Shown here: positions 5,082 through 40,216 of the stretch, piece after piece | Layout: every line of letters starts with the position of its first letter | How positions within the stretch are numbered: position 1 is the first letter of the stretch | Assembly (NCBI GenBank): GCA_002179805.1 | Contig: NAVB01000270.1 | Span: 23,440-87,439, forward strand | DNA length: 64,000 nucleotides | Origin: Acanthamoeba lenticulata | Taxonomy: Eukaryota > Discosea > Longamoebia > Acanthamoebidae | Direction of reading: 5' to 3' | Position numbers and translations under genes: made by a program | Notes under the pieces: model-generated | Database searches by the model: none | The model's input: the letters and a program-made list of their open reading frames with translations, nothing else | Told to the model about the DNA's origin: nothing

Positions 5082-8035
5082 CTACAAGGGCCACGTCGAA
5101 CTGCCGCCGCCGCTCCGGCCGTTCGTATTGTTCAAGCCGGGCGCGGTGGATGGCGGCGACCGCGACCTCGTCGGCACGACAGGTGAGGTCGACGACGACG
5201 CCGAGGAGGGCGTCGAGACGGCGGCAAAGGGCGACGCCAAGTTGGCGGTGGTCTGGTCGCCCACGGCGGCCGGCCCGGCTGGTGGCGGCCGGGGCGAGTT
5301 CATGCCGAACCGGCTCGTCGCGTCGGGGCCCACGTAGAGCGGGATGTACGACGACGGCAGTGCGCTCGACGCCATCATTGTTGTCGTCGATGAGGATGAT
5401 GAGGAGGATGAGGATGCTGGTGAAGAAGCTGCTGACGAGGAAGATGAAGATAGAGACGACGACGTCGTCGGCGCCGTGACGGCGGACGAAGAGTAGGTGA
5501 GGCTCGGCGAGGCCGACGACGAGGAGGACGCAGAGGAGGACGGAGTCGAGGGCGGCGAAGGGGAGGCGATGATGTGGCGGCCGGAGGACTCGAGGAGGCT
5601 CGCGAGGATGTGCTCCATCGTGGGCGAGTACACGGCCGCCGGGTAGCTTGACGATGACAGCGACAACGACGACGACGACGACGACGATGCCGCCTCGGCC
5701 TCCAAGACCGCGGTGTCAAAGGGCACGCAGGCCAGCGGCGGCCCGCGTGGCGGGTCGACGACGGCCACCCAGCGATCGAGCTCCTCGCCCTCGCCCAGTT
5801 GACCGGCCTCCCACTCGAACACGTTCATCAAGAAGTGCTTCATCTGTTCCGTTTTGGTTGTCAGCTCGACGTGTGGACAGTTCACGCGAAAAAGGCAGGA
5901 AAAGGAGGACGCACGCAGCCGCCGTCACCGTAGAAGAACTGGATGGCGTCGGACGTGGAGCGCAGGAGACGGCCGCTCTTGGTGCGCAGGAGGTGGTTGA
6001 ACTGCATCTTTGGGCTCAACGTCTTTGGCTCGCTACGCAGCATTCCACGCATTCCGTTAGCCACGCATACCATGAATTCCACACCTTAAACATTGATTGC
6101 CTAGCAACGGACAAAAACAAACATAGTCGGGACACACTCTCGGCCGAGAAGTACGTACCGCTTGATGTAGTTGGGGCTCAACTGGCGGCGCTTCTTCTCC
6201 TGCATGACCACCAGCTTGGTCATCGGCTCGCCGAGCAGTTGATTCTACACGAGAAACCAGCTCTCCCGTGATCAGCACGCAGAGCGAGATATATAAAAAG
6301 AGAGAAAAAATAGAACGTCTCCGGATTGGGGGATCAGCATCGTTGAGGACGAACAGGAGAAGAAGAAGAAGAAAAAGGGGAGCAGCTCACCCAGGAGTAC
6401 TCGCTGAGCTGGCACATGGCCGCGTTGACGTAGATGATGGTCGGCGGCCGCGCGTCAAAGACAGACGCCAGGGAACACACGGCCACCGGGAAGCGGAAGT
6501 CGGGCACGGTGAGGTGGGTCAAGTCGGGGTACTCGCGCAGGAAGGGCAGCTCCTGCAGCACCTCCGCCGGGGGCGCCGACGCGTCGGGCGGCCACGCGAT
6601 CGAGGGCGGGCACGTGATCAGCGCCTGCGGCCACGCGCGCGGCGCCACGACGACCGGCTGGGCAGCAGCAGCAGCTGCGGCAGCAGGACCCTGCTGGGGA
6701 CTACTGGCTGCGCGCTGGAGCTGCGCCTGGAACTGGCGCTCGTAGTCGGCGCGTAGGGCGGCCAGCGCTTGCTCGGTGGTGTTGAGGTGGTCTTTCATGG
6801 TCACCATCTGGCTGCGCAGCTGGGCGCCCTCATCCCGCAGCACCTTCAACTCGAGCGTGAGCGCCTCCACAGCCCGCACCAGCGCGTCCAGCTCGGCGGG
6901 CCCGTGCTGCTGCTGGTGGTGGTGGTGGTTGCTGTCACCGGCCACCAGCTGGTCGGCGGCGGCGAGCGGCCTGGACGCCACGAGGCCCTCGGGCCCGTGA
7001 TCTGCGCTGCGCCGCCTGCGCTTGGCTTTGGTCGTCGTTGTTGTCGCCACCGCCGTTGCCGTTGGTGTCGTCGCGGCAGCTGGAGTTGCCGGGGCGGCCG
7101 TGGTCGTGGCAAAAGGCGGCTGGTGGTGGGGCTGCTGCGGCTGGGAGGCCGCCTCTCCACGTGGCAGCGACGAGAAGTGATGGGCAAACGGGGCGGCGAG
7201 GCTGGCGAGGAAGTTGTCCATCGACGTGACTGGCGAAGAAGAAGTAAAGGAAGATGAAGATGAAGAAGAAGAAGAAGAGGAAGCTGCGGTAGACACAAAC
7301 GCGCCGGTCGGATAGGGGCCCAAAGAGGAAGAAGAGGAAGGTGTGGGGCGCATGACGTTAGAGCAAAGGTGGGGGTGGCCTTTGCCCACGCAGTGGCTAC
7401 ACGGTTGTTTTCTGCAGCCAGCCACATATCACCACCCCACCAGCGCACGCACACACAGGCCACGGTGAGGTGCCGCGGGCGGACGGACAAACGGGAGCGC
7501 AAAAGCTTTCTGTCCCCCGTAAGCCAAAGGGAAGAAAAGGCTCCTTTGGCGGCTGCAGCCGGGAGAACAGGTCGCCTGGAACAGCTCGGCGTCGGGCAGG
7601 AACGACAAAAAACAAAAGAAAAAGAGTTTCTGAAAAGAAAATTGAAACAAAAGTGAAACGAAACCCGAAAAAAGGAAACTTGAGCGGCCTTGCCCCCACG
7701 TGTTGGCCGCTTTAGGTTGTGGTGGTCCGGTGGTGACAGGGAGAGGGTACAACCGCAACAAGCACACAAGAGTGGGTGTATGTCGCGAGTTGGGGCTTGC
7801 GGCTGGCGAGGGGCCAGGGCGCAGACGAAGAGGAGAGGAAGGCCGTGCATGGGAGGGGATTTCGAAAAAGAACGAAACGAAATGACGAACCAAGAACAAC
7901 AACGACAAGAAGAGAAACCGCGAGAAAAGGAATCGAGAACTAGGCACTCTCAACGAGAGGGAAGGGCCGGTACCCGTCACAAGAGATTCGCGCAACCGTG
8001 CAAAAGTTGCATCCTCCTCGGTCCTGCGCCAGCAT
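5082..8035 (-). CDS. Zn2Cys6-PAS transcription factor, paralogue 1 (AcuK/ERT1-like)
   Basis: Predicted DNA-binding regulator, 682 residues, exons 7974-8035, 6391-7411, 6159-6244, 5915-6032 and 5082-5843. The cluster is split by intron 1: CNFCTVARISC on exon 1, then PCSHC and GHPHLC on exon 2 (CX2CX6CX5CX2CX8C, about residues 9-37), as in fungal AcuK/AcuM/ERT1/RDS2. A coiled coil follows (about 185-245), then a PAS-like domain (about 315-470, with PPTIIYVNAAMC and AIQFFY), then a long Ser-rich tail ending SSTWPL. The ATG at 8035 is preceded in frame by a stop. It is head to head with paralogue 2. The DNA target is unknown; a metabolic sensing role would be borrowed from the fungal family. Confidence 0.82.
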
Positions 8036-8583: not shown

Positions 8584-11058
8584 ATGGAGAGGAAACGACA
8601 TGCGCGTACGCAGCGGGGAGGAGGAGGAGCAGCTGCTGGTTCAGCTCTGCCCAGTTGGTTTCCCGCCGCACCGCCGTTTGCGACGGCTTGCAACTTCTGC
8701 ATCGTTTCGCAGGCCGCTTGCGATGGGTTCGCCACTCCTCGCGCCCCCCTTCTCCTTCATGTCCTCCTCTCCTGAAAGATGAAGAGAGACAGATGGGGTC
8801 AGCTGAGCAGTTTGACTTCTTCTTCTTCTTTCTATTTTCTTTTTCTGTTTTAATCTAATCAAAACACACGTGCCCTTGCGTGGCCGCGGTCATGTACATG
8901 TCGTGCCCCCCCCCCCACGCTAGAGGACGGCCATGCGGCTGGTGCGTGGAGAGGGGGCGGACCCACCTGTGCCACGACGCGACAACGCAACCACCACCAT
9001 CTTCGCAAAAGGATTCTCCTTACGAGCTGGAGCAACCGCGGTCGTGGGCAACTACGGGCCACAAGCGCTCTCGTGAACCACCGCAGGCCGAACAGCAACT
9101 CCACCACCATCACCATCTTCCTCCTCATCACCAATATCTCTACACGCAGCAGCAACATCCGCCCTATCACCACCAGCACCCTTTCCAGGAAGAGGAGGAG
9201 GCCGCCACAGCAGCAGCAGGAACGCGTTTCCCGCCTCTGCCGTTGTTCCCTTTGATGCATTTCCCGCTTCTGTCGTGCGATGGCGCGGTCATGCATCTCG
9301 CCCCACCACCGCCGCCATCCGCCGCGTCATCGCCCCAGGCGCCCACCACCGCCACCACCACCTCAACAACCCCCATGTCGTCGTCGTCGGCGCCGCCGCC
9401 GTCCTGGTCCGCCCAGCCACGACCGGGCCGTGGACCGCGGGCCGCGGCCGCGTCGGCGTGGCCGGCCGCAGCGGCGGCGGCGACGACAGCGGCGACGCCA
9501 CTGCCGACGAGGGTGAAGACAACGACGACGACAGCGTCGGGGCCACCATCGGTCGATGCGTCATCGCATGCGACGGTGAGCATGCTCATGAGCGCGGTGC
9601 AGGCGCTGACCACCGAGACGGCGCGGCTGCAGGCCGAAAACGTGCAGCTCCGGGCCGAGATGCGCGCCATGCAGGCCCAGCAAGCGGCCCTCGACGACGC
9701 CATGCGCTCGCTCCGGGCCGACCTCCGCCGCATCTCTTCTTCTTCCTCCTCCTCCTCTTCCTCTTCTTCTTCTTCTTCTTCTTCACCTCCACTTGCCATC
9801 ATCTCTCCCACCTCTTCTCCTTCCTCATCCTCCTCATCATCTTCCTCTTCATCCTCATCATCATCATCGTCATCGTCGTCGTCGTCGCTGATTCACGGGC
9901 TGGAGACGAGGCTGCGGCGGGAGCTGCCGTTCCTGCAGGACTACCCGCGCCTCAACAACGTCGTCCCCATCGACTTTGGGTCCTCTTCCCGAATGCATGA
10001 TGGTGATGATGATGGTGACGAAGATGGTGATGCTGATGATGGTGATGGTGATGGCGGACAGTTTGCCGATGGTGGTCTGCACGGTGGCGTCGGTGTATGA
10101 CCAATCGCCGCCGGTCATCACCTACGCCTCGCGCGCCATGTGCGAACTCAGCCTGTGGCCATGGGTACGCGCCTCCGATTGGCGGATCGTTGATGCTCGA
10201 TTATTTAAAAAATATTAATGCAAAATAAAAAATAAAATAGGAGCAATTGATTGGGGCACCAGCAAGCCGGGTGCTGGTCATCCAAGAGCGCGCCCGCCAA
10301 CATCTCCCGTCGATCATGCTTGACAAGTGCATATCCCAATTTTTTTTTTAAACTTATTTATTTGTTTGGGTTAACACCCTGACGCACACAGGGAGCCGAT
10401 GTCGATCAGCGCGCCCTACAGCTTCGCGCACCTCTTGCGCGACAAGAATGGCGGCCTGTGGCGCACCGTCGACACCACCCAGTTCTTCTTCAACGAGGAG
10501 GGCCTCGTGCGTCATTTTCTTCCTTTTTTTTGTTCAATTATTGATAAAAATATCCATTTTTATCCATTTTTAAAATACTTTTTTCGACCATAAGCGTGCG
10601 GCTCACGCGCGCGTGTGTGTGTGCAGATGAAGCACTCCCTGATCATCGTGCGCAAGTGGAAGAAGGGCCGCCTGCGCGAGGGCGAGGTGCTCGATTCGTG
10701 GGGCTGCCTGGTCGACCCGAGCCCGCTGCAGCCCGTCGTCGAGCAACCTCCTCCTCTTCATCCTCTTCATCCTTCTCCTCCTCATCCTGCTGCTGCTGCT
10801 GCTTCTGCTTCTGCTTTGTCTTCCCCGTCCTCCTCTTCCTCCTCCTCCTCGTCCATGCCGTCGTCTTCGTCTTCCACATCGTCGAGCGCGTCCTCCGCTT
10901 CCCAGTTTGCGCCAACACGCACCCGCTATGGCGGGGAGTCGCCGCCATCGACCTCTTCCTCGTCGCGTTCTCCCTCGTCATCTCCTTCTTCTTCCTCCTT
11001 CTCCTCATCCTCCTCCTCCTCCTCCTCTGCGCGTCGGCCTTCGCCATACGGCCCATAG
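8584..11058 (+). CDS. Zn2Cys6-PAS transcription factor, paralogue 2
   Basis: 644 residues from exons 8584-8726, 8924-9979, 10062-10164, 10241-10326, 10392-10506 and 10627-11058, all in phase. The zinc cluster (about residues 36-64) is again split after CNFCIVSQAACD, with RPCGWC and GRTHLC on exon 2. After a His/Gln/Pro-rich and Ala-rich linker comes a coiled coil ('LQAENVQLRAEMRAMQ', about 230-280), poly-Ser encoded by (TCN)n at 9738-9790 and 9820-9890, then the PAS-like block ('PPVITYASRAMC', 'TVDTTQFFFNEEG') and the 'RLREGEVLDSW' helix. The Ser-rich tail lacks the WP end seen in paralogue 1. Exon 4 (86 nt) matches exon 3 of paralogue 1 in length, which supports both models. Confidence 0.82.
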
Positions 11059-14961: not shown

Positions 14962-17654
14962 TCATAGCGAAGGCCACGACTCGCTCGGAAAGGACGAGTC
15001 CAGCAGCCACGCCGTCATGGCGTTGGTGGCGGTGGCTTCGTGTTGAGTGTTGTTCTGGTTATTATTGTGGTTGTTGATGCGCCCGGTGGCCATCGAGGCG
15101 TGGTGGAACATTGCGTGGTCCGCTGGGCCCACGTGCATCACCTGCTGCTGCTGCTGTTGTGGCACGAGCCCGGTGTAGTGCTGTTGTTGTGGCGGCAGAG
15201 GGCCACCTCCACCTCCACCTCCACTTCCACCACCAAGTTGGTGATGATGCTGTTGAGAATAAAAGTGAGGATGATACTGCTGTTGTTGCTGATGCTGCTG
15301 CTGTTGCGGTTGCTGTTGATGATGATGATGGTGCTGTTGCTGGTACTGTTGCTGTGGTGGTGGTGGTGGTGGTGGCTGGTGGAGATGGCCGCCAAGCCCG
15401 TAGGGCATCTGGAGCGCGTGCTGGTGGTAATAGTGGCGAGCGTGGGGCTGCTGCTGGTGGCCGCTGGGCTCCAGCATGGCGGCCGCGGCCGCGGCGGCTG
15501 CGGCTGGTGGCGGCATCGGCTCGGGCGGGAGGAGCAGCGCGGGCTGGTGGCGGTAGGACGACGACAACGACGGCGGTGGCTCGATGGCGCGAACGAGGCT
15601 GAGCTGCGTCTGCGCCTGCGGCTGCGGTGATGGCTGCGGTTGCGGCGAGGTGGTGGTCGCCGTGTCGACGGTGACGATGCCGACGGCTGAAGGCGGGAGC
15701 CACTGGTCGAGCACTTCGGTCTCGGTCAGGTGGCCCTCTTCCCAGTCGGTGATGCACAGCAGCGAATACCGCATCTGGTGCCACGCGAGATGACGTCAGC
15801 ACCCGCATTAAGCCTTCTTCAAGACGAGAAAGAGCGAAAGCGAAAGCGAAAAGAATGAAAACGAAAGCGGAGCAAGCACCTTGCCCGCCTCGTCGCACAT
15901 GAACTGGTGGTTCTGCTTGACGCGAAGCAGGCCGTTGCGGGTCCGCAGCAGCGAGTGGTATCGGTACACCTCCGTGACGGCGTAGGGCGGCCTGCTGTTG
16001 CCGATGTGGAGCGCCTGCTTGTAGTGCTGCAGGTTGACCACGTACGTGAACTGGTAGGGCGACCCGAGCAGTTCCTCCTGCGCCACCGCAACCACAACCA
16101 CATCAACAACAACATGAGCACATGCACGTGCGTGTGGCGCGCGCGTGTGTGCGGTGCACGCGTGTGAGCATGCATACCTGCGGGCGGTGGGTGAGGCTGC
16201 AGAAGGACGAGTTGACGTAGATCAGGACCGGCGGATTGTCCGTGAACCCGCCCGGGTGCGGCAGCTCGAACGCGCATACAGGATAACTGTTGCCCTCCTC
16301 TCGCCAGCCAATAAACGACACGACACGACACACACAATCGTGGAGGAGGGAACGGAGGAGAACCTGAAGTTGACGATGGCCGACGAGCGGATCTCGTAGG
16401 GGCGGAGAAAGGGCATCCGGCGCCGGATCTCGCTCTCCAGGCCGCAGATGGCGATATCGCCTCCTGACGGTGTTGTCGGTCGCGCTGGGCCGGACGACGA
16501 CGACGAGGTCGACATCGCTGACGATGACGAAGACGATGAAACGGGCGAGGGTGTGGACGACATGGAAGCCGGCGATGACGAGCATGACGAGGAAGTGAGC
16601 GGCGTTACGGCGACCAACTGCGCCGGCGGGATCGAGGAAGCGGACGTCATCCCGCCCCCATTGACGGCGGCGGCGGCGGCGGCGGCGTCGTGGTCCAGCC
16701 GCCGCCGCTTGTGGTGCTCAAACTCGAGGTTGTCGCCGCGCTGCTGGGCGAGGAGGTCGCGCAGCTCGACCACCATCTGCTTCGAGCGGCGGTGGGCCTC
16801 CTTGCGCTTGGTCAGCTTGTCCCCGAACTGGGCCAGCGTCGCGCGCAGCTGCCGAATCTCGGCGGCCTGCAGCTCCACGACCTGGTTCATCAACTCCAGC
16901 TGCGCGTTGGCATTTTGGGCGGTCGTCGAGGTCGCGGTCGTGGTCGTCGTGCTCGTGGAACTCGCGGCGGTGGAACTGGTGCTCGACGCGCTGCTGGCCG
17001 AGGTCGACGTCGACGTTGGCACCGGCGTTGGCGTTGACGTTGGCTGTGGTTGGTGGCGGACGGGCCCAGCGAGGTGGTGATGAACCAGAAAGGGCGCCGG
17101 CGGGAAGCCGGGCTGGGGCCCCGCCGAGCTAGCTTGGGTGGCTAATAGCGAGGGCAGCGGCGCGGACCCGACGGCGGCCTTGAGGTTGGCCGCCCCGGCG
17201 GTGGCGGGGGCAGCGGACGGCGGGAGCGGGAGCTTGGCCTTGGCAGTGGACGGGGCCTCGCCTCGCGGGACCACCGTGATCACCGGCGGGCAGTCGCGCA
17301 GGGCACGGCGCCCGCGCTTGCGCGGAGGAGGGTCGGCGCACAGGTGGGCTCGCCCAGTGCGCACGCACCGCCCACAGGGCCGGCTCCTGGCCAGGCACAA
17401 AAGAAAATAAAAAGATTAAAATACGGAATATTGGCAAGGAAATCTGATGGGGGCGCATTTTGATGCCTGCAACAGTTCTCTGTGTAGCCGCAACAGAAGG
17501 GGAAAGATATGCCGCAAGATCTCAAGAGGGGAGGGGGGGCGCCGTACGGATCACAAGCGGTATGAGCCTTTCTACAGAAGTTGCAGGCCGGCACGGGCGT
17601 AGGAGATATTGGAGCACTCAGGCCGCCGGCATGGACCGCCATGGAGGCCTCCAT
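14962..17654 (-). CDS. Zn2Cys6-PAS transcription factor, paralogue 3
   Basis: 750 residues from exons 17548-17654, 16361-17386, 16178-16286, 15880-16077 and 14962-15774. The zinc cluster (about residues 24-52) reads ACNFCRKAHTACDP on exon 1, then SRPCGRCVRTGRAHLC, followed by a basic KRGRR stretch. A coiled coil follows (about 170-225), then the PAS-like domain including 'PPVLIYVNSSFCSLTHRPQ', 'EELLGSPYQFTYVVNLQ' and 'VYRYHSLLRTRNGLLRV', and then 'DWEEGHLTETEVLDQW'. The tail is rich in His and Gln and ends SESWPSL. The start could also be the ATG at 17642, or one further upstream in the same frame (17759). An intron inside the PAS start (after VNFR) is not present in paralogue 5. Confidence 0.82.
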
Positions 17655-17883: not shown

Positions 17884-18507
17884 TCATGTGGCGCAGATCA
17901 TAGCTCGCCGGCGACCGGCCTGCTCCTGCGAATCGACCACGAGAGGCAACCAGACGTCGAACTGTTCGTCAGCTCGCAGATTGCCCTCGACCCACGTCAG
18001 CGGGCACAGGATGGCGTGCTTGACCTGTTTGCGTTGAGCACGTGCTTCACTGTCAGCTCGTTGGCTTGTGTGCTGGCGGAGGAGAAACGAGACGTACGTT
18101 GCCCTCGGCGTCGAAGAAGAACTGTGTGTTGTCCTCGGTCCGCAGCAGGCGTCCGCTGCGGCATCGGATGAGGCAGTTGATATGGTACACGGGGCTCACC
18201 GTCATCGGCGTCCTGCGCAGATAAGAAGATGACGACGATGAGGATGAGGATGGCTGGGAAGGGAGGAGGTGGAGGGGGTGAGGTGTACTTGTTGGTGAGG
18301 TGAGCGACCATCTGCATCCGCGACTTGGCGCCCGTCACGCGCACTTTGGTGATGGGGGCGCCGAGCAGCTCGTCTTGGGAGAACTCCGTTAGACGGACGA
18401 AGGCGGCGTTCACGTAGACGATCGTGGGCGACCGCGTGCTCCGCAGCGGGCCGAACGTGCACGCCATCACAGGGTACCTGCAAGGAGAAAGAGATTGTGT
18501 CAATCCG

Positions 18508-18579
<72 letters not shown>

Positions 18580-19902
18580 ACGTACTCCCAATCGGGGATG
18601 GCAAAGGTGGCGGGCAGCTGGTAGGTGGCCACGAAGGGGATCAGCCGCCGGGCCTCGGACGCCGGCGAGACACCGTCCAGCAGCAGGCTCAAGCAGGACG
18701 GGGAGGACGACGAGGACAAAGACGACGAGGTCGACGTAGACGTCGCTGGGTGCGCGATCAGCTTCTGCTTCTTTCGCTGGTTCCAGCGTCTGGTGTCCAG
18801 TTCCATGACGCCGTCTTCCTGAAGATGCGAGTACTCATCGTCGTTGTCTTCATCGTCGACCCCTGCGAGGCCGTGAGCGTGGTCATGGCGCCCGCCGCCG
18901 CAGCAAGGCTCGCGAGCCAGGAGATGGGCCACCCTGCGGTCGGCCTCGTTCTGCTGGGACTGGAGGACGCGCAGCTCGTCGTGTAGCTGCTGGTTTAGCC
19001 GCTTTAGGCCTTGGACCTCGCCCATGAGCGTCTCTACGACTTGCTCCAGCCGCTGGACGGTTTGTTCGTTGCCATTGTTATTGTTGTGGCGGCCATTACT
19101 GCTGATGCTGCCACCCTCGTCCCGTGGACCCTCTTCTCGAGGAGGAGGATTTGGCGAAGGTTGTGGCGGCCGAGTAGCGGGGGGTGGAGGGGGTGGAAAA
19201 GATGGGGCTTGGGATAGGTAGGGAGGATAGGCGTGGTGGGGTGTAGGAGGTTGGAATGGATGTTGTAGTAGTGGATTATGTTGGAGATGTGGTGGATTAT
19301 GGGCGAGGTCCGCCGTGTAGAGGAGAGGATGTGGTGCATGAAAGGGACTCGGAGGATAGGGTTGGTGCCCAGGATCACCGTAGGCGGGCCACGAGGAAGA
19401 TAAGGGGACAGAAGCCGCAGCAGAAAGAGAGGGCGAAGGAGAAGGGACGGAAGGAGGAGGGGGTGGCGACGACGAAGCGGGCGACAGCGTGAAGGACAAG
19501 TTCGGGGCGTCTCCCTCCAGGTTAGGACGCAGGGAAGGCGACTCAGAATTGGAAGAAGTGGAAGTGGAGGTCGTTGAGGTCGTGGAGGTGGGGCCATTCG
19601 ATGCGAGAAGGACGGCTGGAGTCGCTGTAGGCAGGGGGTTGGGACGGCGACCACGCTTCCGAGGCACGGTGTCGGAACAAAGATGGGCGCGCCCCGTGCG
19701 GACACAGCGCCTGCATGGTCTCGACCTTGGAAAAGGAGGGAGAGCGTGTCAACATGAAGAACCAGCAAAACGCCCACGCGTTGGGCAGTGAAAAGAAAGA
19801 GAGAAGAAGAACGAAGATGACGCACGGGTCACAAGCCGAGTGGGCGTCGCGACAGCAATTGCACGCGCGTACTCGCAGCATGACACAATGTTGGAGACAC
19901 AA
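17884..19902 (-). CDS. Zn2Cys6-PAS transcription factor, paralogue 4 (short C-terminus)
   Basis: 553 residues from exons 19826-19902, 18586-19725, 18289-18477, 18098-18212 and 17884-18024. The cluster (about residues 14-42) is ACNCCRDAHSACDP, then SRPCRRCVRTGRAHLC, then PRKRGRRP. A Ser/Pro/His-rich region and a coiled coil ('VQRLEQVVETLMGEVQGL') precede the PAS-like domain ('SPTIVYVNAAFVRLTEFS', 'EDNTQFFFDAEGN'). Unlike its relatives it stops about 30 residues after the last conserved block ('EGNLRADEQFDVWLPLV') and has no long Ser- or Gln-rich tail. It also lacks the intron others have after the FCxLT block. Intron 2 carries a GCGT microsatellite. Alternative start at 19881. Head to head with paralogue 5. 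Confidence 0.8.
18507..18579. repeat. (GTGC)n microsatellite in an intron of TF paralogue 4
   Basis: About 18 uninterrupted GTGC/GCGT units (73 bp), running almost up to the GTACGT donor of intron 2 on the minus strand. Translated, it gives misleading Arg-Ala-Cys-Val or Thr-His-Ala-Arg repeats on either strand. Confidence 0.95.
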
Positions 19903-20454: not shown

Positions 20455-22670
20455 ATGGCTCAAGCGGTCATGCCACCGGTCGCGCCCGCTGCCCCTGTGC
20501 CGGCGTGCAACTTCTGCCGCAAGGCGCACACTGCATGCGACCCGTACGTGCACAGTCGTCTTTTTTACTTTCTTTCCACATATACCGCCTCATCTCAGAA
20601 GGTTGGTTGTGCACCCGTAGAAGTTGAGTGGTGGATATTCCGATAGGGATGACTCTGCACCACTTGCACCACCCCGCGGATGCAGCTCTCTTTTCCATAT
20701 TGCAGCCTTAAAGGCTCACAACGCGCCGGGGGGGGGGGCACCAGGGCGCGGCCATGCGGGCGCTGTGTGCGAACGGGGCGAGCTCACTTGTGCGCCGATC
20801 CACCGCCCCAGAAGCGAGGCCGGAAGCCCCTCAAGGACCGCGCCAAGGCTTCCACGACGGCTCCTTCCGCCGCGGCCGACCCTCGGCCTCCCAAGTCAAC
20901 GCCCAAGTCGTCGTCCTCTTCCTCATCCCGAGCGTCCGCGGCGCCTCGGCCAGCAGCGACCAGCAGCGCCGCAAACGCTTCCGCGGCCGCCCTCCGAAAC
21001 CCGCCCGTCGCGGCCGCGCACGTCGCTGATGACGACGGCGACAGCGACGACAGCGGCGAGGCCGGGCCGCTGCGCGCACGGATCAAGCTCATGACGCAGG
21101 TGATGACGATCCAGGCCGACGAGCTGCAGCAGCTGCGCGGCGCCTATGCCGCCCTCCAGGCCAAGTACGCCCGGTGCAAGGAGGACCTGCGCGCCGCGAG
21201 GAGACACGTGGCCGAGTTGGTCGAGCATGTGCGCGACACCAAGCCGCGCGAGCGCAAGCGACCTCGGATCGAGGACAGCGTCTCGTCCCTGGCCGACGGC
21301 GATGGCGGCAGTGGCGGCGGCGGCGGCGGCGGCGGCGGTGGCGCCAAGCTGCAGGCGTTGTCGCCGTCCCAGTCACCCACGACATCGCCCTCGACCTCGC
21401 CGCCGCTTCCCGTGGCGTTGGCCGTCACGATGGCCGTCGTGAACGAGGCCCGCGAGCTCATGCCCTTCCTGCGCGACTACGACCTCCGGTCGTCGTTGGC
21501 GGTCACCAGCTTCAGCTACCCGGTGTGCGCCTACATGAACTCGGTCACTGACGACTGCCCGCCGGTGATGATCTTTGCCAACCCGGCCTTTTGCAGCCTC
21601 ATCAACCGCCCGCTGGTGCTGCTTCTCTCTTGCTGCTTGGCACTGGAATGCCAGGCATGCTCATTGGCGCGACTGGCCTGTGCATACAGGATCGGCTCTT
21701 GGGCTCGTCGTTCCCGTTCGCCTTTGTGGTGAACGTGCACCAGTACAAGCAGGCGGTCATGCTGACCACCAACCGACCGCCGTTCAGCGTGAGCGAAGTC
21801 TATCGCTACCACTCGCTCCTACGCTCGAGCTACGGCTCGCTCCTGCGCGTGTCGCAGAACGCCCAGTTCTTCTGCGGCGAGAACGGCGTGGTACGCCTCT
21901 TCGTTCTTTCTCGTCGTTATTGTCGTCGTTTTCGTTTTCGTCTTGGTCGACTTCGTTCTTGTTGTCGTCGCGGGCCCGGGCTGACGCTTGTGGCTGGGCG
22001 CGTGCAGCTCCAGTACACGGTGCTGTGCATCCTCGACTGGGAGGAGGGCCGCCTGGAGGAGACCGAGGAACTGGACAAGTGGGTTCCCCTCAGGCGCGGA
22101 CTCGATATCGAGTCCTCTTCGCCCTTCTCGTCCTCTTTCTCGCCCGAATCGTCGTCAGCGTCCTCCACCACAACCACAACCACTTCCTCTTCATCGTCGT
22201 CATTGTCGTCGTTGATCCCGCTGACGCCTCGCCATCACTATAATCACCAACAACAACAACAGCAACAACAACAACCCTATCTCGACCCTCAGCACCAGCC
22301 ACATGAGCACCCACGGCCCCACCATCATCCCCCACGCCATCAACATCCTCATCATCGCCTTCCTTACGACCACCATCTCCCATCTTTTCCGCCCCACCAC
22401 CACAACCGGCAACTCGAGCCAACACCTGGGCCCTACCACCCTCACCATCTTCATCATCCTCACATAAGCCAACCGACAGGACATCCCCATCACCAACAAC
22501 ATCATCACCATGCTCCTCTTGAGCAACTGCTTTCAAGCCATCCCGGAGCCCCGTCGACGTCTGGGGCTGGCCAGCGCGGGTCCTCGTCCGACCTGACGTG
22601 GCTCCTGCAGGACCTGCCGTTTCCTGCGAGCCCGTCCTGGCCCTTCTCCCCGCCGATGGACCCCACCTGA
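20455..22670 (+). CDS. Zn2Cys6-PAS transcription factor, paralogue 5
   Basis: 607 residues from exons 20455-20543, 20745-21615, 21690-21890 and 22008-22670. The cluster (about residues 18-46) is ACNFCRKAHTACDP, then ARPCGRCVRTGRAHLC, followed by KRGRKPLK. A Ser/Ala/Pro linker leads to a coiled coil ('QADELQQLRGAYAALQAKY', about 135-190), a Gly run, then the PAS-like domain ('ELMPFLRDYDLRSSLAV', 'PPVMIFANPAFCSLINRPL', 'VYRYHSLLRSSYGSLLRV') and 'LDWEEGRLEETEELDKW'. The tail is His/Gln/Pro-rich and ends SPSWPFSPPMDPT. It is closest to paralogue 3 in the zinc cluster and PAS core but has lost the intron at the start of the PAS block. The gene ends 97 bp before TRAPPC9. Confidence 0.83.
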
Positions 22671-25700: not shown

Positions 25701-27554
25701 CGGGGCAGCGACGGCGCGGCCTCGACACACAGCTGCTCCCGACCAAGCTGCCCGCGGACCGCGGCCTCCCGCGCGAAGACGGTCCCGAGAACGCGACCGA
25801 GGTGGTGATCGTGCAGGCGCTGCCCCTCGTTCAGCTGTCGACTGTCGGCCCGCCCGTCCGGCAGCTGGCCTTTGAAAAGCAGCTCGGCGGCGTCGAGATT
25901 GAGGTATGTGGCCACGTCCACCGCCTCCTTAAATGTTGTCTTCTCCTGATTGCCTGGAATCTCATGCATGCCGGCGAGCAGGTCAAGAATGTGAGCGGGC
26001 TGGCCATCGAGTGGATGCAGCTGAACGCGCCTGCGGCGGACGGCGATGACGACAGTGGCACCAGCTCGGGCCTCGTCTGGGACGCCGACGTGGTGACGTC
26101 CCACCTGCCTCTGGCGCCCGGACACTCGTTCGTTCTGCCCGTGCGCTTCCGATTCGGCGCCCACATGTACGCGCGGCTCCACCACCAACCATTTATTGGT
26201 CGAGGCAAAACAACGGCTTATACCGCGTCGACATAAACAGGAAGGACGGCCGCGTGGTGGTCGACTACGGGCAGAAGGACGGCACCCACAAGCGGCGAGC
26301 GGCCATCGACGTTCGGGTATTTCTCCTTTTATCAATATTTTGAAATTTTATTTTTATTCAACTTTAATTATTGTTTAATATTGATTGGCTGGCTGTGTCA
26401 CATCAGGCGTACTTGCTGGGCGGACAAGTGCCGGTGGTGGTGACGAACCTGAACGTGCTGCCCTATGGCCGCCTGCCTGCCCTCCCGGGCTGCGCGGTCC
26501 CGCCCGAGGGCCAGGAGAACGACTACGTCGTGCTGCTCTTTGAACTGCACAACACGTACGCGCACGCCACGCCACGCGAGCACGCGCACGCCGATGCTCG
26601 CTCACACGTGTGCCCGCGCAGAACATCGCTGAGCTTCACGGTGCACTGCGCCGTGACAGAGCCGGCCAGCACGGCCCGCGTCGTGTGCGAGCCCCGGTCC
26701 CACAACAAGCTCGCTGTCGTCACCCGGCGCCTGCCCTACGACGGTTCCCTCTCCGCGCGTGAGGTTTGTTGTTGTTGCTGCTGTTGTTGTTGTCGTTGCT
26801 CGCTCAAGCCAAGCCCGAGCTCGTCGTCGCTCACACGCGTGTGGATGCCTTTGCTTTGGGGCACTCAGGCGGCGCTGTCGTGCAAGGCCAGCCTCATGCA
26901 GCGGGTCTCGCTCTGGTGGGTGTCGGCCTGGGGCCACCGGGGTGACATCTCGCTGGCGTCGCTGGCCGTGCCCACGGCCCTGCTCCTGTCCGACCCCGTA
27001 CGCATCACCATCACGGCCGAGAAGCAGCAGCGCGAAGAGGAGGAAGAGGTCCCGCAAAAGAAGCAAAAAGGAGAAGAGGAGGACGAGGACGATGATGATG
27101 ATGATGATGACGAAGGGAAGAGCGCCCACCGCGTCGTGTGCGGCGAGTTCTGTCGTGTGCGCGTGCGCGTGGAGAATCGCGCGGCGGTGGCCGCCAGCCT
27201 CCTCCTCCGTGTCCAGGCCTACCAGGTTCGTGTGCGCAGCCAATCCTGATGCGTCAACTGGACTGCCCATTCACACGCGCACACGCGACAAACGCGCAGA
27301 GCACGGATGCGGGGTCGCCCAAGGTGTCGCTGCTCAACAAGCTCCTGTGGGTCGGGTCTCTCCACGTGACGTTTGGCCATGTCGGGCCCGGCGAGGCGGT
27401 GGAGCACGTCGTTGGCCTGTGCGCCGTGCAGCCTGGCCGGTATGGGCTGCAGGCCTCGGCGACCAACGAGGCCACCAACGACACGCACTGGGCCACCCAG
27501 CCTCTCGCGCTCTTCGCCCGTCAACCACGAACGGTGACAAAATTGGAGCTTTAA
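22767..27554 (+). CDS. TRAPPC9: TRAPPII subunit TRAPPC9 / Trs120
   Basis: Tethering-complex subunit that directs Rab11-type GTPase exchange at the trans-Golgi and endosome. Nineteen exons close in frame to 1,099 residues: 22767-22938, 23070-23158, 23262-23397, 23477-23595, 23667-23836, 23929-24203, 24271-24362, 24424-24531, 24597-24736, 24851-24925, 25012-25169, 25230-25393, 25466-25903, 25982-26166, 26241-26316, 26407-26555, 26622-26763, 26869-27225 and 27300-27554. Family blocks: 'RSDWEDFQVHRKTLGVVGII', 'GRVNKIKGDYCLLAGDARDA', 'RQGFHRKFAFFIREAA', 'NPFIFTPMRF' and 'AFQVHLESVSLATEGAEF' (the Ig-like half). A poly-Asp/Glu insertion lies near 27050-27120. Two introns appear to use GC donors (23398 and 25394). 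Exon 1/2 borders are the least certain. Confidence 0.92.
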
Positions 27555-27600
27555 GGTTTGCAAAATAAAAAGACAGCATCCAACACCAAACCTGCGTTGT

Positions 27601-28135
27601 GTATGCCCTTGGCTCGACGAGGCGCAGTGCTTCATTGCCAACAACATTGCCGAGCAACTCGACATGACGTGGACCACTCTTCTGACGTGGAACAGATCAC
27701 TGAACAACTGCGCGAAGACGTGGGGCCGCAGGTGCTCCTCGGGAACGTGTCTGCCGAGAGTTCGCCGTTGGCGCAGGATCAAGGACGCCAGATTGCAGAA
27801 AGGTCCTGGCGTCAAGAGGCACACCTTCACCGTTGAGGACAAGCGACTCCCGCAGAGCGCGCTGAGCTGGCAGCGAATGAAAACTTCTGGGTTCGTGCCA
27901 GACAGGTCGGTCGTGCTGCGCTCCTGGCGGATGAAGAAGCCAAGGACTGCCACCTGCGCCAGCACAGCGAGAAACTGGCAATCGTGTGCGGCGTCATCAG
28001 CACTTTTTCTCTCACTTGCGCGTGTGTCCTGACTGCCACACAGCGACCAAGCACATCTCTTTGCTCACCGGGCGGCAGATCATCCTCCTCGGGGTGCCGA
28101 CCGCTCCCACCACTGGCTCGTGTTCGTGTCAATAC
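27601..28135 (+). pseudogene. PPR-E-DYW (RNA-editing factor) relic, frameshifted
   Basis: Consecutive blocks of a plant-type DYW protein occur in the right order but in different frames. They are: the end of the last PPR ('LDEAQCFIANNIAEQLDMTW', from 27613), the E domain ('DVEQITEQLREDVGPQVLLG', about 27684), the E+ region (RRWRRIKDARLQKGPG, then HTFTV, RLPQS and SGFVPD, about 27760-27915), and the deaminase ('CHLRQHSEKLAIVCGVIS', then 'HLRVCPDCHTATKHISLLTG', about 27950-28080). Last come traces of the RFHH..GxCSC end (about 28090-28130). The zinc ligands of the cytidine-deaminase fold, HSE and CxxC, are kept. At least four frame changes and small deletions break it, and no upstream PPR array survives because TRAPPC9 ends at 27554. 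It is best read as a truncated pseudogene. Confidence 0.8.
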
Positions 28136-28397
28136 ACCCACACACACACACCCACACACCCCTCAAGAACTCATATCCCGACCCGTTTTGCCGCTTGCTT
28201 GGATTGGAGTACACCTCTACCTCCGCCATGCTGCCCGGGCACCCACACCAGGGAGGTGGGTGTCGACAAGGACGATAGGGCCGGATCGCGGGGGGGGGGG
28301 AATCGGACAAACGCGGCAGACCGGGACGACGAGAAGCAAATCGCTTCTAATCGCACGCAAAGAACTTGGCAGCAGCATAAGGCAGAGAGAGGCAAAC

Positions 28398-30259
28398 ATG
28401 CTACAACGAGCGATGCTGCGAAGGGGTGGTGTTGGTGGCACATCGACCAGCGTGCTTTGCGGCACGATGAAGAGCCAGGCAGCATGGCGCAGTGCTGTTC
28501 GATTGGAGGGCCGCACGGCCTTGCAGACTACTGTAGGCCGCGAGTACCACGCCGAGCGTGATTTCAACGTCATCGAAGGGTCGGTGGAGATGAGCCAGGA
28601 CGAATGGCGTGAGAATGGCCGTGTGATGCTCGACCTGGTCAACAAGCTCAAGAAGGACGTGTCCACCGTCAGGGCTGGTACATGCAGCTCAACACATCAA
28701 CTCGTAATTTTAGATTTTGTTTCATTTGTTTTACACGATTTTTAATTCAAAAAATCTGGGGTCACACTCAAGGTGGCGGCGACACGGCCTGCTCTCGGCA
28801 CGTGGCCAAGGGCAAGCTGCTGCCGCGCGACCGCATCCTTCGCCTTCTCGATCCCTCGTACGTGCCCCCCCCCCTCATCTTGCTCTCTCTTTTTTGCTTT
28901 TCCCTCACGGGCGCGTTCGCCTTCAAGGTCGCCGTTCCTGGAGCTGTCGCAACTGGCCGGACACGAGCTCTACGAGGACCACGTCCCCGCGGGCGGCATC
29001 ATCACCGGCATCGGCCGCATCCACGGGTGCCGCCTCCCTTCACCGTCACCACCTCCATCTCCACCATCATCATCTTCATCAGCATCATCACCACCATCAT
29101 CATCCTCCTGCTTCTCATGTTCGGCCGTGTGACACAGGCAGGAGTGCATGGTGGTGGCCAACGACGCCACGGTCAAGGGCGGCACCTACTACCCGATCAC
29201 GGTGAAGAAGCACCTCCGCGCGCAGGAGGTGGCCCAGCAGAACCGCCTCCCGTGCGTCTACCTCGTCGACTCGGGCGGCGCCAACCTCCCGCGCCAGGAC
29301 GAGGTTAGCCCTTCCTCACTTCCTCGTCATTCTCACATCGTCTTCATCATCATCGCCCTCGCGACTGACAACTGCGGCGAACACCAGGTCTTCCCCGACA
29401 AGGAGCACTTTGGGCGGATCTTCTACAACCAGGCCAACATGTCGGCCCAGGGCATCCCTCAGGTATGCTCGACCCCCCAAGAATGTGTGGAATGTGCGGC
29501 TAACACAGAGGCACTTGTTAAGGTGGCGGTGGTGATGGGCTCGTGCACGGCCGGTGGCGCGTACGTGCCGGCCATGGCCGACGAGTGCGTGATCGTCAAG
29601 GGCAACGGCACCATTTTCCTCGGCGGCCCGCCCCTCGTCAAGGCCGCCACGGGTGAGGTCGTCACGGCCGAGGAGCTGGGCGGCGCCGACCTCCACTGCC
29701 AGACGTCGGGCGTGACGGACCACTACGCGCACGACGAGGAGCACGCCCTCGCGCTGGCCCGACGCATCGTGTCCAACCTCAACCCGTCGCACACCAAGTA
29801 CCGCCAGGGCGCCTGGGAGCCCGAGCCCGTCATCGACCCCAGGCACGGCCTCGCCCCTGCTGCGCATGCTTGACATTCCAGTCAAATTGTGTGGCTAATG
29901 GAATTTGTGGAATGCGCGGAACGTGACGCGCGTGTGTCGTGGCAGGTACCCGCAAACGGACCTGTACCACCTGATCCCGGCCGACGCGCGCAAGCCGTTC
30001 GACATGCGCAAGATCCTGGCGCGCGTGCTCGACGACTCGCGATTCGACGAGTTCAAGGCCCTCTACGGCCCGACCCTCGTCACGGGCTTTGGCCGCATCC
30101 ACGGCCACCCGGTGGGCATCGTCGCCAACAACGGCATCCTCTTCTCCGAGTCGGCCCGCAAGGGCGCCCACTTTGTCGAGCTGTGCGCCCAGCGCGGCAT
30201 CCCGCTCGTGTTCCTCCAGAACATCACGGGCTTCATGGTGGGCCGCTCCTACGAGGCCG

Positions 30260-30290
<31 letters not shown>

Positions 30291-30884
30291 CACCGCCGTC
30301 GCCTGCGCGCAGGTTCCCAAGCTCACCGTCGTCGTCGGCGGCTCCTTTGGCGCTGGCAACTACGCCATGTACCTTCTCCTCCTCTTATGCGCTCAAGGGC
30401 GCCGGCTGACGTCATGCTGACGTGGACCCATCCAGGTGCGGGAGGGCGTACAACCCGCGGTTCATGTTCATGTGGCCCAACTCGCGGATCTCGGTGATGG
30501 GCGGCGAGCAGGCGGCCTCGGTGCTCACGCAGATCAAGCGCGAGGCCATGGAGAAGTCCCGCTCGGCCCACCAGTGGTCGGCCCAGGAGGAGGAGGCCTT
30601 CCGCTCCTCGATGCACGCCAAGTGCGTCCCCGCCGGCGCTTCCTCGCTCGCCGCACACGCGCGCCTTCTGACATGCGGTTGTCCCACCGCACACACGCCA
30701 CACGCGCACGCGCACGCACACGCGCAGGTACGAGAAGGAGGGCCACCCGTACTACGCGTCGGCGCGGCTGTGGGACGACGGCATCATCGACCCGGCCGAG
30801 ACCCGCAACGTGCTGGGCCTCGCCCTGGCGGCCTGCCGCAACGCGCCCATCCCCAACACGCAGTTTGGCGTCTTCCGCATGTAA
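28398..30884 (+). CDS. MCCC2: methylcrotonoyl-CoA carboxylase beta subunit, mitochondrial
   Basis: Carboxyltransferase half of 3-methylcrotonyl-CoA carboxylase (leucine catabolism, mitochondrial matrix). Nine exons close to 596 residues: 28398-28677, 28773-28857, 28928-29026, 29138-29303, 29388-29462, 29523-29842, 29946-30368, 30436-30621 and 30728-30884. The first 45 or so residues are Arg/Ser/Ala-rich without acidic residues until AERDF, a typical presequence. Signatures: '[15 protein letters not shown]', '[20 protein letters not shown]', '[18 protein letters not shown]', '[15 protein letters not shown]', '[20 protein letters not shown]' and the end NTQFGVFRM. Intron 6 (from 29843) has a GC donor. 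Later in-frame ATGs leave the exact start slightly open. The alpha subunit is not in the window. Confidence 0.96.
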
Positions 30885-30963
30885 ACTGCGACTTCTCGAC
30901 CTTCCACCCAACATCAACAAGCAGCGGCTTCTATTATCTATTTTCTTGAAAGGAAAAGGCGGC

Positions 30964-33330
30964 TCAGCAGCTGAGGCCGAGCTCGTTGAGGAGGGCGTCG
31001 AGGAGGTGCAGCTTGCGGTTCTTGGCGGCCACCATCAACTCGTAGCGCGTCCGCAGGGCCGCCGGCACCTGAATCCTCGTCTTTGCCTTCTCCTGTGTCC
31101 TCCTGTCCTTCTCGTCGTCGTAGGCTTCCTCTTCGTCCTCCCTCTCGTCGCGTTCGTCCCACTCCTCCCAGTCATCGTCGTCCTCGTAGGCGGTCTCTGC
31201 CGCGGCGATGGCCTCCGGATCGTCTTCGGTCGGGTAGATGCTGTCCAGCGTCGACCGGATCTCGTCCACGAGCGGGATCGTGTCCGTCGCCTGCCGGTTG
31301 GCGATCGAATACGCGCTCTCCCTGTGTGCACACACGCGAGTCAGTCGACCGCACACGCGCGCGCGTGGGCGGACAAGAGGGGCGGGGGTGCACGCACTGG
31401 ACGAGTCGGGCGAAGGGGTCCTTGAGCGGCGGGGCGACGAGGTCCTCCAGCTGGAGGGCCATGAAGCGGACGAGGGACTCCTCGAGGCGGTCGAGGCTCA
31501 TGAGCTGGGCCAGGTGGAACAGCTCAAACACGTTGCTCAGGTTGATGTACTGCGCCAGCAGCATGGCGCACAGGTTCCGCAACACCGGCAGCATGTACAT
31601 GTCCGACAGCTGCAGCACCGCGTAGATCAGGTGCCACTCCTCGTCCTCTTCCTCCTGGTCGTCGTCGTCGTCGCCCTCTTGATCGTCACCCACGGCCTTG
31701 CTTTCTTCCTCGACGGCCTCGCGCCGGCGTCGGCGGAGGGCCTGGATGAAGGCGAGCGCGTTGGTGAGGTTGTCCGTGTACACAAAGTCGACGATGAAGG
31801 CAAACGCCTCGGCCGAGACGTCGCGCAGCTCGAGCTCCCGCACGCGCCGCGCGCTCGGCTCCTCGTCGCCGTCCCGCTCGGCGTCTGCGTCACCGTCATG
31901 GCCCTCGTCGCTCTCGTTCTGTCGGGCATCGGCGTCGCCGTCGGCCGACAGGAAGGCCTCGCCCTCGCGGAAGCGGCCCAGGACGAGGGCGTGGAAGTAG
32001 GCCGAGCGCCCGCAGAAGAAGTACTTGTGGCACCGGAAGCGCCGCCCCTCGACCACGAACACGATGTCCTCGAACACGTCTTCGTCCTCCTCAAAGTCGC
32101 CCGCAGCGCGTTCGTAGCCGTCGTCGCTGCTGTCGATGTCATCGTCGCGGAAGGCGTGGCGAATGGCGCGCATGGCCAGCTTGCCAAAGTCGGCCTGGAG
32201 CGGCGTCGGGCCCGTGCGCTGGCCCGCCGCGTCGGCGAAGCGGTAGATGTCGGCCAGCTCGATCACCACGCGCTCGGGCAGCGGCAACCCCTGTGGAATT
32301 CAAACCATGAGAATGACAGCAATGACGAAAATTTCAAGAATGATGCTTGCGTACGATGCGCTGCTTCTTGATCTCGCGCTGGAGGACGGCGTGGAGGTCG
32401 GCCAGCTTGCACTGCTTGACGAGGGCCTCGGTCTCGTTGAGCAGAATGCGCGGCACCTGCAGGCGCTCGTTGTAGAGGAAGTGGACGACGGCCTTGAAGG
32501 CGTCGGCGTCGAGGCGCGGGTGGGCCAGCAGCACGCGCCGCTTGCCGCGCCAGCGCGTGCGGAACATGTGGCGGAAGTGGGCCGAGCGCGCCGCGAGCAC
32601 GACCCGATGCGCCCACGTGGGCGTCCCGTTGACGATGAAGTGCACGTCGCTGTGCGGCGGCCGCTCGTCGTCGTTGTGCTCGGACAGGTCGTCCCTGTGA
32701 GATGTACGGCATTTGGTGTTGGCTTTGGCTTTGGACTGGACAACGAGCCAGGGAACGAGGACGACGTACATGTGGTAGTAGAAGGAGTTGCGAAGGAAGT
32801 CGGTGAAGGGGTCGTGAGCGCGGGAGACGGCCTTGTACTCCCGCAGCATGCGCCTGATGTCGTTGGTGAGCGCCGCGTGGAAGCACCGCTCGCCGTCGAA
32901 CGTGTTTTCCTCGCAGCGCGCGCCTGGAGGGCAAGTTGGCGTTGAGCGGGCGAAGAAGATGGCGCAAAAGTAGCACAGAAGTAGAATGAGAAGATGCCGC
33001 GGGGGAAGACAGGGAAAGATTCGCACCTTGCTCGAGGAGGTAGCGCACCAGCGACTCGTGCCCGGCCAGGCAGGCGTAGTAGAGCGGCGTGGAGTCCCAC
33101 CGGTCGCGCTGATTAACTTGTACGCGCTTGACCTCAACCAAGTAGCGCACACGCTCGTGCCGGCCTAGGACGGCGCACTGGAAGATGTCGTCCTCGATGG
33201 CCTCTTCATCACGCCAGCTTAGCCCCGCACCTACGCCGCGCACGGCCAACGAGTCGTGCCGCATAAAGTTGGTGTCATCGATCGCATGGATGTAGCTATC
33301 GTGCTCATCGTGGTGGTGTTGCAGGTCCAT
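30964..33330 (-). CDS. ABTB1: ABTB1/BPOZ homologue: ankyrin repeats and two BTB domains
   Basis: 682 residues from exons 33027-33330, 32770-32923, 32355-32694, 31398-32290 and 30964-31321. Ankyrin repeats (about 38-105, 'RDRWDSTPLYYACLAGHESL'), then 'ARCEENTFDGERCFHAAL', BTB1 (about 165-265, from HSDVHFIVNGTPTWAHRVVL) and BTB2 (about 340-520, 'VFVVEGRRFRCHKYFFCGRS'). BTB2 is interrupted by acidic, low-complexity insertions. The end matches animal ABTB1 closely ('RQATDTIPLVDEI' and the terminal LNELGLSC). Family proteins serve as Cul3 adaptors (established) and act in the cytosol. Convergent with MCCC2, 80 bp between stop codons. Confidence 0.93.
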
Positions 33331-33538
33331 TGTTGATAACGGGCGCTCCGGACTGTCTTAAAGACTGGAAGATGCTAACCTTTTGGGCAGAACGGAGTGA
33401 CGGACAGCAACGAAATCGGCGTGATCACGTCGCTTCTACGGGCAGTCTTGCGCTCAAACTTGCGTTTGCATCAACATTTTCTTTTTAATTTTTTCTTTGT
33501 ATTTCTTGTGGGCGAATCGATTGATCGACCAAACAAAC

Positions 33539-34572
33539 ATGCGTCGGGCCACAGCAGCGGGATTTAGCGGTTGCAGCCGCAGGCTGGTTGTGGTTCCGGC
33601 TACCAATGGATCATGTGCTCTCGGTGGCCTAATGAGCCGTTCTCTTCTTTCCACCCGCCATCACATTCCTGCAATTGCCGCCACCCGATCGTATGCTACC
33701 TCGAGCATGCTGGGTGAGGACATTTTCACCAAGGCATACGAAGAAGTCCAGCAAAAGGAGTACGATCTCGGCACCAAGGTGAAAATTACCGAGGTCCGGG
33801 CGAAGACCACCAACCTTCCGGCAAGCATGAAGAGGATCGATCACCTCCTGCGGCAAATTCGGAGGCTCAGCTACCGCGAAGCAGTCATCCAGCTCAAATT
33901 CAGCCAAAAGCACATTGCTCCTCGGGTGATCGAGACGATTGAGAAGGCTCGCCAAAAGGCCGAGGTGAAGTTTGGCCTTGATCCCGAGCGTCTCGTTGTC
34001 GGTTCGTTTCCTCCTAGTTTTCTCTGCCGCCCATTTTGTTCACTCTTTACGTCTTTCATCTGCATCAGATGAGATTTACGCTACGAAGGGACAATACGGA
34101 AACATGAGGGTCAACTACCATGCCAAGGGGCGCATTGGCATTATGAGGCGCAAGAGGTACGCCCATAGCTGCACAATGCTGCAGACGGCACGGTTTGACA
34201 TCTTGTGCGTTGCATGCAGAGTGCACCTTACCGTAAAGCTCAAGGAAGTGCCTTTGGTGGTACGTACTTTTGTCGAGTAGCATGAGTGAACACATCAAGT
34301 TGATTATGTAATAACCTCTACGCGCCTCTCTTGGTTGGCCTCCACAGGCGGGAGAAGAGAAGAAGCCGCTGGGCAAGTTTGTCCGAGGCCAAAACAGGGA
34401 GGAACGACAGGCGTGGGAGGCCAAGAGGGACCGAGTGGCGAAGGAGATGGGCGTGCACCCGCTTGTTGTCACCACGAAGCAGGTCGAGCTCTGGGACCTC
34501 TACAAGGAGAAGATCCTCGGCCAGAAGCCGACCGGCGACAACCAGCAACAGGCCGACCAGACGGCCGCCTGA
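33539..34572 (+). CDS. MRPL22: mitochondrial ribosomal protein uL22m
   Basis: Large-subunit mitoribosomal protein, 271 residues, exons 33539-34001, 34069-34156, 34220-34259 and 34348-34572. The first 60 residues are Arg/Ser/Ala-rich ('RSYATSSM' near the cleavage region), a mitochondrial presequence. The uL22 core is recognisable: 'HLLRQIRRLSYREAVIQLKF', then 'QKHIAPRVIETIEKARQKAE' and 'VNYHAKGRIGIMRRKRVHLT'. A C-terminal extension (about 215-271) of charged residues goes beyond the bacterial core. Divergent from ABTB1 with about 200 bp between starts. Confidence 0.9.
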
Positions 34573-34907
34573 GGACGAGTGCTCGCGACTTGTCCACAAC
34601 ACAAAACAACAACTTTTTTTATTCTTCTCCTGCTTCCTTACACGGGCGTGCTTGCCTTCATGATCGTCTGCTCCGACGAGCCCATTACGCTGGCCTCGTG
34701 CGCTACCTGGCGAGTTTAGGACTGAAGGCCCAAACCTACAAGGTCATGCGCTCATCTCATGTTCATAAGAACAGAAAGTGGCGCTACAAGAGCCTCTTCT
34801 AGTGGCGCGACCTTACGGAAGGGGATGCGTAAACTCGAGTTGATGAGAAGGCGAGCATATGCTCGCTACTTGGTTTTTATTGTGTTGTTGCGCGTGTGGC
34901 TGGCTGC
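34573..34907 (+). other. intergenic stretch with a short S10-like open frame
   Basis: 335 bp between uL22m and the minus-strand repeat-protein gene. One frame (about 34663-34802, ending in TAG) reads YKVMRSSHVHKNRKW near its end, which recalls the RSxHVxKxxR block of ribosomal protein uS10/mitochondrial S10. It has no ATG upstream of the block in frame and the rest of S10 is absent, so I do not call a gene. It may be a relic or chance. Confidence 0.25.
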
Positions 34908-35591
34908 TTAAGACTTCTGGGAAGAGATCTTGCAGACGGCGCCCTCCTGCTTCTCCCACTGCTCCATGGTGATCGGGGCGCGGACTTCATGGGTGATAAC
35001 CTCCTTCTCCTGGACGGTCTCGTGGATGTGCTTGGTCTGCTCGATGAGGTGCGGGATGACGACCTCGCGCTCGATGACGGGCGTCACCTGCTCGATGACC
35101 TTCTTGTGGACGGTCTCCTCGACGATGGGCTTGAGCTCCTGGCGCTGCTTGTCGACGCCGAGGAACTCAGTGCGGGACTCGATGGTGGGCGCGGCGCCGA
35201 GGCTGCGGCCCTCGAGCGGCGTCGGCACGCCGCTGGCCTTCTCCTGGCGCGTGCCCAGCTCGATCTCCTTGGCCTCCCTGGTCACGAGCGTGGGCCGCAC
35301 CTCCTTCTCGAGGATGGGCTGCACGACCTGGCGCACCTCGGTCTGCTCGCGGTCGATGTGCACCACGGGCTGCACCTTCTCGATCTCGACCTCGCGGATG
35401 CGCTCGATCTCCTTCTGCGGCTGGCACTGGACCTCCTTGGTGTAGGTCACGCCCTCCTTGACCACGTCCGCCGAGCGGAGCTTCTCCTGCGTGACCGTGG
35501 TCTCCACGACCATCTTGTCCTCCTTCTTCTCGGTCGTCGTGGCGGTGGTCGACTCGGCGGGAGCGACGAAAATCTGCTTGAGGATGTCCAT
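34908..35591 (-). CDS. charged repeat protein A (227 aa), paralogue of the divergent neighbour
   Basis: An intronless gene for a very hydrophilic, mostly helical or extended protein with no signal peptide or membrane segment. It is built from short Val/Ile-Glu/Gln/His-rich units such as VVHIDREQTEVRQVVQPILE, LKPIVEETVHKKVIEQVTPV and HIHETVQEKEVITHEVRAPI. The middle of the protein (PVVHIDREQ, RQVVQPI, ELGTR, PIVEETVHKK, ITP/VTP-VI) aligns unit by unit with the gene at 36358-37660. The family is not one I can name with confidence. The pattern weakly recalls fungal HIHE/VQPxI-type stress or allergen-like proteins, but that is only an impression. A TATA-like box precedes it. Confidence 0.75.
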   Translation of the reverse strand: MDILKQIFVAPAESTTATTTEKKEDKMVVETTVTQEKLRSADVVKEGVTYTKEVQCQPQKEIERIREVEIEKVQPVVHIDREQTEVRQVVQPILEKEVRPTLVTREAKEIELGTRQEKASGVPTPLEGRSLGAAPTIESRTEFLGVDKQRQELKPIVEETVHKKVIEQVTPVIEREVVIPHLIEQTKHIHETVQEKEVITHEVRAPITMEQWEKQEGAVCKISSQKS

Positions 35592-37660: not shown

Positions 37661-37804
37661 GCGTCCTCCCCCTCCCCCCCCGTGTGTGTGTAGATAGACT
37701 CCCCAAACAGACCTCCTCCTCCTCTCCTAGAAAGAAAGACAGGGGACAAAAAACGAATGAGTGATTGGGTAAGACCATGAGAGAAAAGGGGCGGGGGAGG
37801 GGGT

Positions 37805-40049: not shown

Positions 40050-40216
40050 GGCGCCTTACTTACTTCTAACCTATCTATCAGAGCCGTGATGTAGGGGCAG
40101 GAATCAGTCCCGCTTGTGTTGTGTAGCGTTACGGTACGTTTTTCCCTTCCCGCCAGAATCCGATTCCCTTATTCTTGGAATAAAAAGTAAAAATATTAAT
40201 CTTAAATGGCGGCCAC

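Follow-up and report, generated by a model that had tools for sequence, protein, structure and literature searches.

A probable DYW-type PPR pseudogene between a TRAPPC9-like and a carboxyl-transferase gene in Acanthamoeba lenticulata

DYW-type pentatricopeptide repeat (PPR) proteins act on organelle transcripts: the PPR array binds a short RNA, and the DYW domain converts a single cytidine to uridine by deamination. The window analysed here, a stretch of 64,000 nucleotides from Acanthamoeba lenticulata contig NAVB01000270.1, very probably carries a pseudogene of this family. At positions 27569-28129 of the forward strand lies what reads as the 3' end of a PPR gene with E, E+ and DYW cytidine-deaminase domains, present in pieces that run from the end of the last PPR repeat through E and E+ to DYW. 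With its PPR array missing, its frame broken and residues lost, the relic can no longer encode an editing factor. A preliminary description made from the sequence had placed a decayed or truncated DYW gene here, starting at 27601. The region was correctly located, and similarity starts a bit to the left of that edge, at about 27569.

Identity and setting of the relic

The frameshift-aware alignment that had been proposed was run with a custom frameshift-tolerant script, using as reference the genome's own intact DYW protein (encoded on contig C1003). The relic in the window, referred to as copy A, scored 320, with 99 identities over 183 aligned codons, seven frameshifts and no stop along the path, whereas ten shuffles of the same DNA gave scores of 29-43. 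A tblastn search with the same protein matched positions 27613-28044 at 55.1 bits (E 5e-11, a value covering a linked set whose second piece, at 22.7 bits, is mostly chance) and positions 28007-28129 at 43.5 bits (E 1e-6). DYW similarity is also returned by a profile search, in which PF14432 matched one segment, 28010-28132, at 25.4 bits, barely above the cut-off of 24. The E-motif profile PF20431 found no match in the relic, and the E and E+ regions are shown there by the alignment to the intact protein, with losses.

The zinc ligands remain readable although scattered over frames, as had been described: in copy A, hand-counting puts HSE at 27963-27971 and the codons of CPDC at 28025-28036, in different frames, and the segments of the relic together use all three forward frames. 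The relic thus has the DYW_deaminase similarity, the HxE and CxxC motifs and the E/E+ regions upstream of DYW that characterise a DYW-type PPR gene, without the single open frame of such a gene. DYW similarity begins within the last PPR repeat, 15-20 bp past the apparent stop of the upstream gene, which indicates that the PPR array is missing; this holds at the locus in both copies known (see below). Coordinates are collected in Table 1.

Table 1. Features of the relic and its surroundings, in window coordinates, with further open reading frames (ORFs) of the window
Feature	Position	Strand	Basis
Apparent stop of upstream TRAPPC9-like gene	27552..27554	+	PF08626 in upstream exons
DYW-type PPR pseudogene (very probable), copy A, 3' end only	27569..28129	+	Alignment score 320; tblastn
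Remains of last PPR repeat and start of E region, two frames	27569..27684	+	tblastn, alignment; hand-counted
E-region remnant, VLLGN segment, third frame	27687..27764	+	Alignment; hand-counted
End of E, E+, start of DYW (KGPGV...RHTFTVED...GFVPDRSVVLR)	27766..27924	+	tblastn, alignment; hand-counted
DYW deaminase segment with HSE motif	27927..28004	+	Alignment; hand-counted
DYW deaminase segment with LRVCPDCHTATK (CxxC)	28007..28087	+	PF14432 25.4 bits; tblastn E 1e-6
C-terminus, degraded but still reading CSC (CSCGDH in copy B on C1162)	28088..28129	+	Alignment
CA-rich stretch, barely alignable between copies; right edge of relic	28130..28242	+	
Probable first exon of downstream carboxyl-transferase gene	28398..28673	+	No Pfam match in the piece itself
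ORF with Cys-rich start	6337..7428	-	
ORF with Cys-rich start	8859..10097	+	
ORF with Cys-rich start	16225..17415	-	
ORF with Cys-rich start	18000..19748	-	
ORF with Cys-rich start	20653..21729	+	

The upstream neighbour had been named as TRAPPC9, and the profile PF08626 bears this out with 34.3 bits in one upstream exon (cut-off 24.7); two other pieces reach 17.7 and 13.8 bits, below the cut-off. The downstream gene, a putative MCCC2 in the preliminary description, is a carboxyl transferase, with PF01039 matching its later exons at 167 and 187 bits.

Elsewhere in the window, the starts of five ORFs are Cys-rich, resembling RPCGRCV..GR.HLC, and in three of them a basic run follows. We take these starts to be reminiscent of half a Zn2Cys6 DNA-binding cluster; a Pfam search of the five ORFs returned no zinc-cluster match, and two gave weak PAS matches below the cut-offs. 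A 450-aa ORF at 13208-14557 (reverse strand) contains three CBM49 stretches and a CBM2 match. It has 32 relatives among the matches listed (8000 candidates scored), and the four of these 32 that are named all come from A. castellanii. A profilin is about 91% identical to PDB 1F2K from A. castellanii (114 of 125 residues, hand-counted), and together these two results make an Acanthamoeba-like genome likely.

A second copy and the signs of decay

A DNA search of the genome located the relic also on contig C1162 (87% identity over 570 of 581 bases), referred to as copy B. This contig carries the homologous locus, with 96.6% identity to window positions 28240-41558 (13.4 kb) and 92.2% to positions 26876-28129. 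It is a separately assembled contig, about 3-4% divergent from the window over 26876-41558. Doubling of the assembly was checked with one 3-kb piece, window positions 50000-53000, which occurs as a single copy; C1162 therefore looks like a separately assembled divergent haplotype, with a local duplication as another possible origin.

Both copies are broken. Copy B has five frameshifts relative to the intact protein and retains slightly more of the gene, including CSCGDH near the C-terminus. Inspection of the alignments showed that two frameshift positions are common to both copies and the others are private, and that residues have been lost at much the same places in the E region. Over the shared region, identity to the intact protein is 54.1% for copy A and 56.2% for copy B. 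Most simply, the earliest lesions are older than the split of the two copies. Decay is visible as frameshifts and losses rather than as stops: the alignment paths contain no stop codon, and the genome search shows one TGA in the C1162 piece. The survival of HSE and CPDC in copy A and the stop-free alignment paths count against a pseudogene.

Divergence between the copies points to relaxed constraint. Leaving out a CA-rich bin (20 aligned bases, three indels), the relic holds 10 indels in 541 aligned bases compared with 76 in 13,910 elsewhere (p 0.0014). Without one indel at the right edge, nine remain, with a ratio of 3.0 (p 0.0044). Substitutions are also in excess, at 16/541 in the relic and 230/13,910 elsewhere (p 0.027), and the length of only one of the ten relic indels is divisible by three. 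One 1-kb bin of the flank (40000-40999) has 18.4 indels/kb, matching the relic's 18.5/kb, so that a high indel density is a sign of unconstrained DNA in general and not of pseudogenes in particular. Taken with the two copies and their shared and private lesions, the raised indel density shows that the disabling lesions are real and that the DNA is unconstrained.

The same divergence bears on whether the relic DNA has been reused, for example in the upstream gene's 3' UTR or in the downstream gene's promoter or 5' leader. The relic takes up roughly two thirds of the 843 bp that separate the apparent stop (27554) from the probable start (28398), which would suit such a role; however, its divergence between the copies lies above the flank average, as in unconstrained DNA, and reuse is accordingly given only a small chance.

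Even less probable is a functional gene whose frame is restored by splicing. Splicing is common in this region, where the domains of the neighbouring genes are found in several separate open stretches, as in intron-bearing genes. Within the relic, however, the frame changes are steps of one or two nucleotides or losses of residues, no insertion of intron length was aligned, and the intact relative has one uninterrupted frame of 811 aa. An intact gene marred by sequencing or assembly errors, which a draft of 1825 contigs might lead one to suspect, is just as hard to credit, since two homologous, separately assembled contigs share some lesions, differ in others, lack residues at much the same places and carry denser indels, as expected of a real pseudogene and not of an assembly slip. 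The proposal that this lineage carried a DYW gene which has decayed or been truncated here is thus upheld: the locus is broken on two homologous contigs, with no room for introns.

Fusion of the relic to the downstream gene was also considered, as the HSE frame of copy A is open into the first exon, and was rejected: upstream of the start at 28398 there is no in-frame ATG in either copy, and the frame leading up to the start in copy B is a different one from the HSE frame.

Other DYW and PPR loci and the kinship of the relic

A whole-genome search with PF14432 gave two places among the matches listed: the window, and an intact domain on contig C1003 (131.9 bits). The C1003 gene (10874-13306) is an open frame of 811 aa with PPR repeats, in which a separate profile search scores PF14432 at 127.4 bits, the E motif (PF20431) 60.7 bits and E+ 22.8 bits, the last below its cut-off of 24. 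The C-terminal part of the protein matches solved DYW structures (9kfx, 517.7 bits; 7o4e, 135.3 bits). A list of intact DYW genes elsewhere in the assembly, which the preliminary description had called for, therefore has one entry among the matches listed, and a genome search with the 811-aa protein gave no second copy of this gene among its listed matches.

Of the 36 matches listed in that search, four extend into the E-DYW part (C1003, C1162 and two pieces in the window), and the remainder fall in the PPR part. One match, on C210, extends to residue 671, in the E region, but the open frame that holds it encodes a simple PPR array with repeats up to its end. Inspection of C210, C28, C632, C1166, C596 and C370 showed PPR arrays with no visible DYW end, and neither PF20431 nor PF14432 matched them. 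As the genome search scores only the best candidates, there may be further weak relics.

A second relic, of the intact gene's 5' part, is located at C1492:9723-9879 (L029 4724-4880, reverse strand). It comprises 157 bp with 90% DNA identity to the C1003 gene; a 2-bp gap shifts the frame, and weaker similarity continues further 5' (71% over 80 bp). A scan of viral contigs with a 240-residue query from the intact DYW protein yielded three pattern matches and no relative.

The kinship of the two copies was explored in a tree of 44 rows, consisting of both, the intact gene and 41 hand-picked proteins of the 232 listed (19 named, namely 18 from land plants and one from a rotifer, and 22 unnamed). 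A clade (95/93) unites the two copies and the intact gene with 15 of the unnamed proteins and, together with three further unnamed rows, is separate from the named plant rows. Within this clade, the partner of the intact gene is P0113; the two copies fall among other unnamed rows on a long branch with weak support (83/66). Constraining them together with the intact gene was marginally rejected by the AU test (p 0.044; 0.048 with P0113 added), a test weakened by the groups having been named after the tree was seen. Of 14 unnamed relatives, 10 are closer to copy A, and 7 to copy B, than the intact gene is, with P0018 (64.1/63.3% for A/B) and P0001 (63.0/61.7%) the nearest; both copies were read against the intact protein, so that any bias would be towards the intact gene. 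Given this separate, if borderline, placement, the relic may be the remnant of a different, lost paralogue rather than of the intact gene.

Editing factors in amoebae

Acanthamoeba DYW proteins are already in print: A. castellanii is listed among taxa with DYW-type PPR proteins in the available part of PMC4202320. In PMC4053784, which presents the A. castellanii genome, the terms DYW, pentatricopeptide, PPR and RNA editing do not occur in the main text, and the available parts of PMC4202320, PMC11946409, PMC4758236, PMC12699882 and PMC7050145 describe no Acanthamoeba DYW relic or C-to-U site. No description of such relics was found in the literature searched. As a pseudogene, the relic is an ordinary kind of object, but it belongs to an uncommon family in an uncommon host.

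Judging from the available text of these papers, it resembles the DYW-type PPR genes of amoebae and other protists in its E-E+-DYW order and its HSE and CxxC motifs, but the descriptions there concern proteins encoded by intact genes, whereas the relic is truncated and frame-broken. The intact gene on C1003 differs in the same way, and the relic sits on another branch of the same clade. Elsewhere among protists, the parts consulted report 16 DYW-type PPR proteins in Physarum (PMC4758236) and, in a diplonemid, just one PPR-DYW protein, which is put forward as the deaminase of that organism (PMC12699882). The latter parallels the lone intact gene found here among the matches listed.

In plants, individual editing factors degenerate or disappear once their targets are lost, according to the available part of PMC5992886. 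The cases given there, CRR28 (truncated in its DYW domain) and losses of CLB19, are like the relic in making truncation or loss of a single factor an ordinary step; they come from flowering plants and are linked to chloroplast targets that are known, whereas the relic has no known target. The ancestor of the relic was presumably a working editing factor that became dispensable, either because its target C became T or because another factor took over. The mitochondrial genome seems to have been left out of the assembly, as COX1 and PF00361 found no match in it.

In a broader reading, for which the evidence stands a little short of evenly balanced, Acanthamoeba-like amoebae once had several plant-type C-to-U editing factors and are now shedding the family, leaving one intact gene (among the matches listed), a decayed tail from another paralogue and a decayed 5' fragment of the surviving gene. 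If this is true, with just one DYW protein surviving, mitochondrial C-to-U sites would be expected to be very few and still undetected, and the relic would mark a site that a C-to-T change had rendered superfluous. The relic also suggests a turnover of plant-type editing factors within the amoeba lineage, which bears on how the scattered DYW genes of protists are gained and lost.
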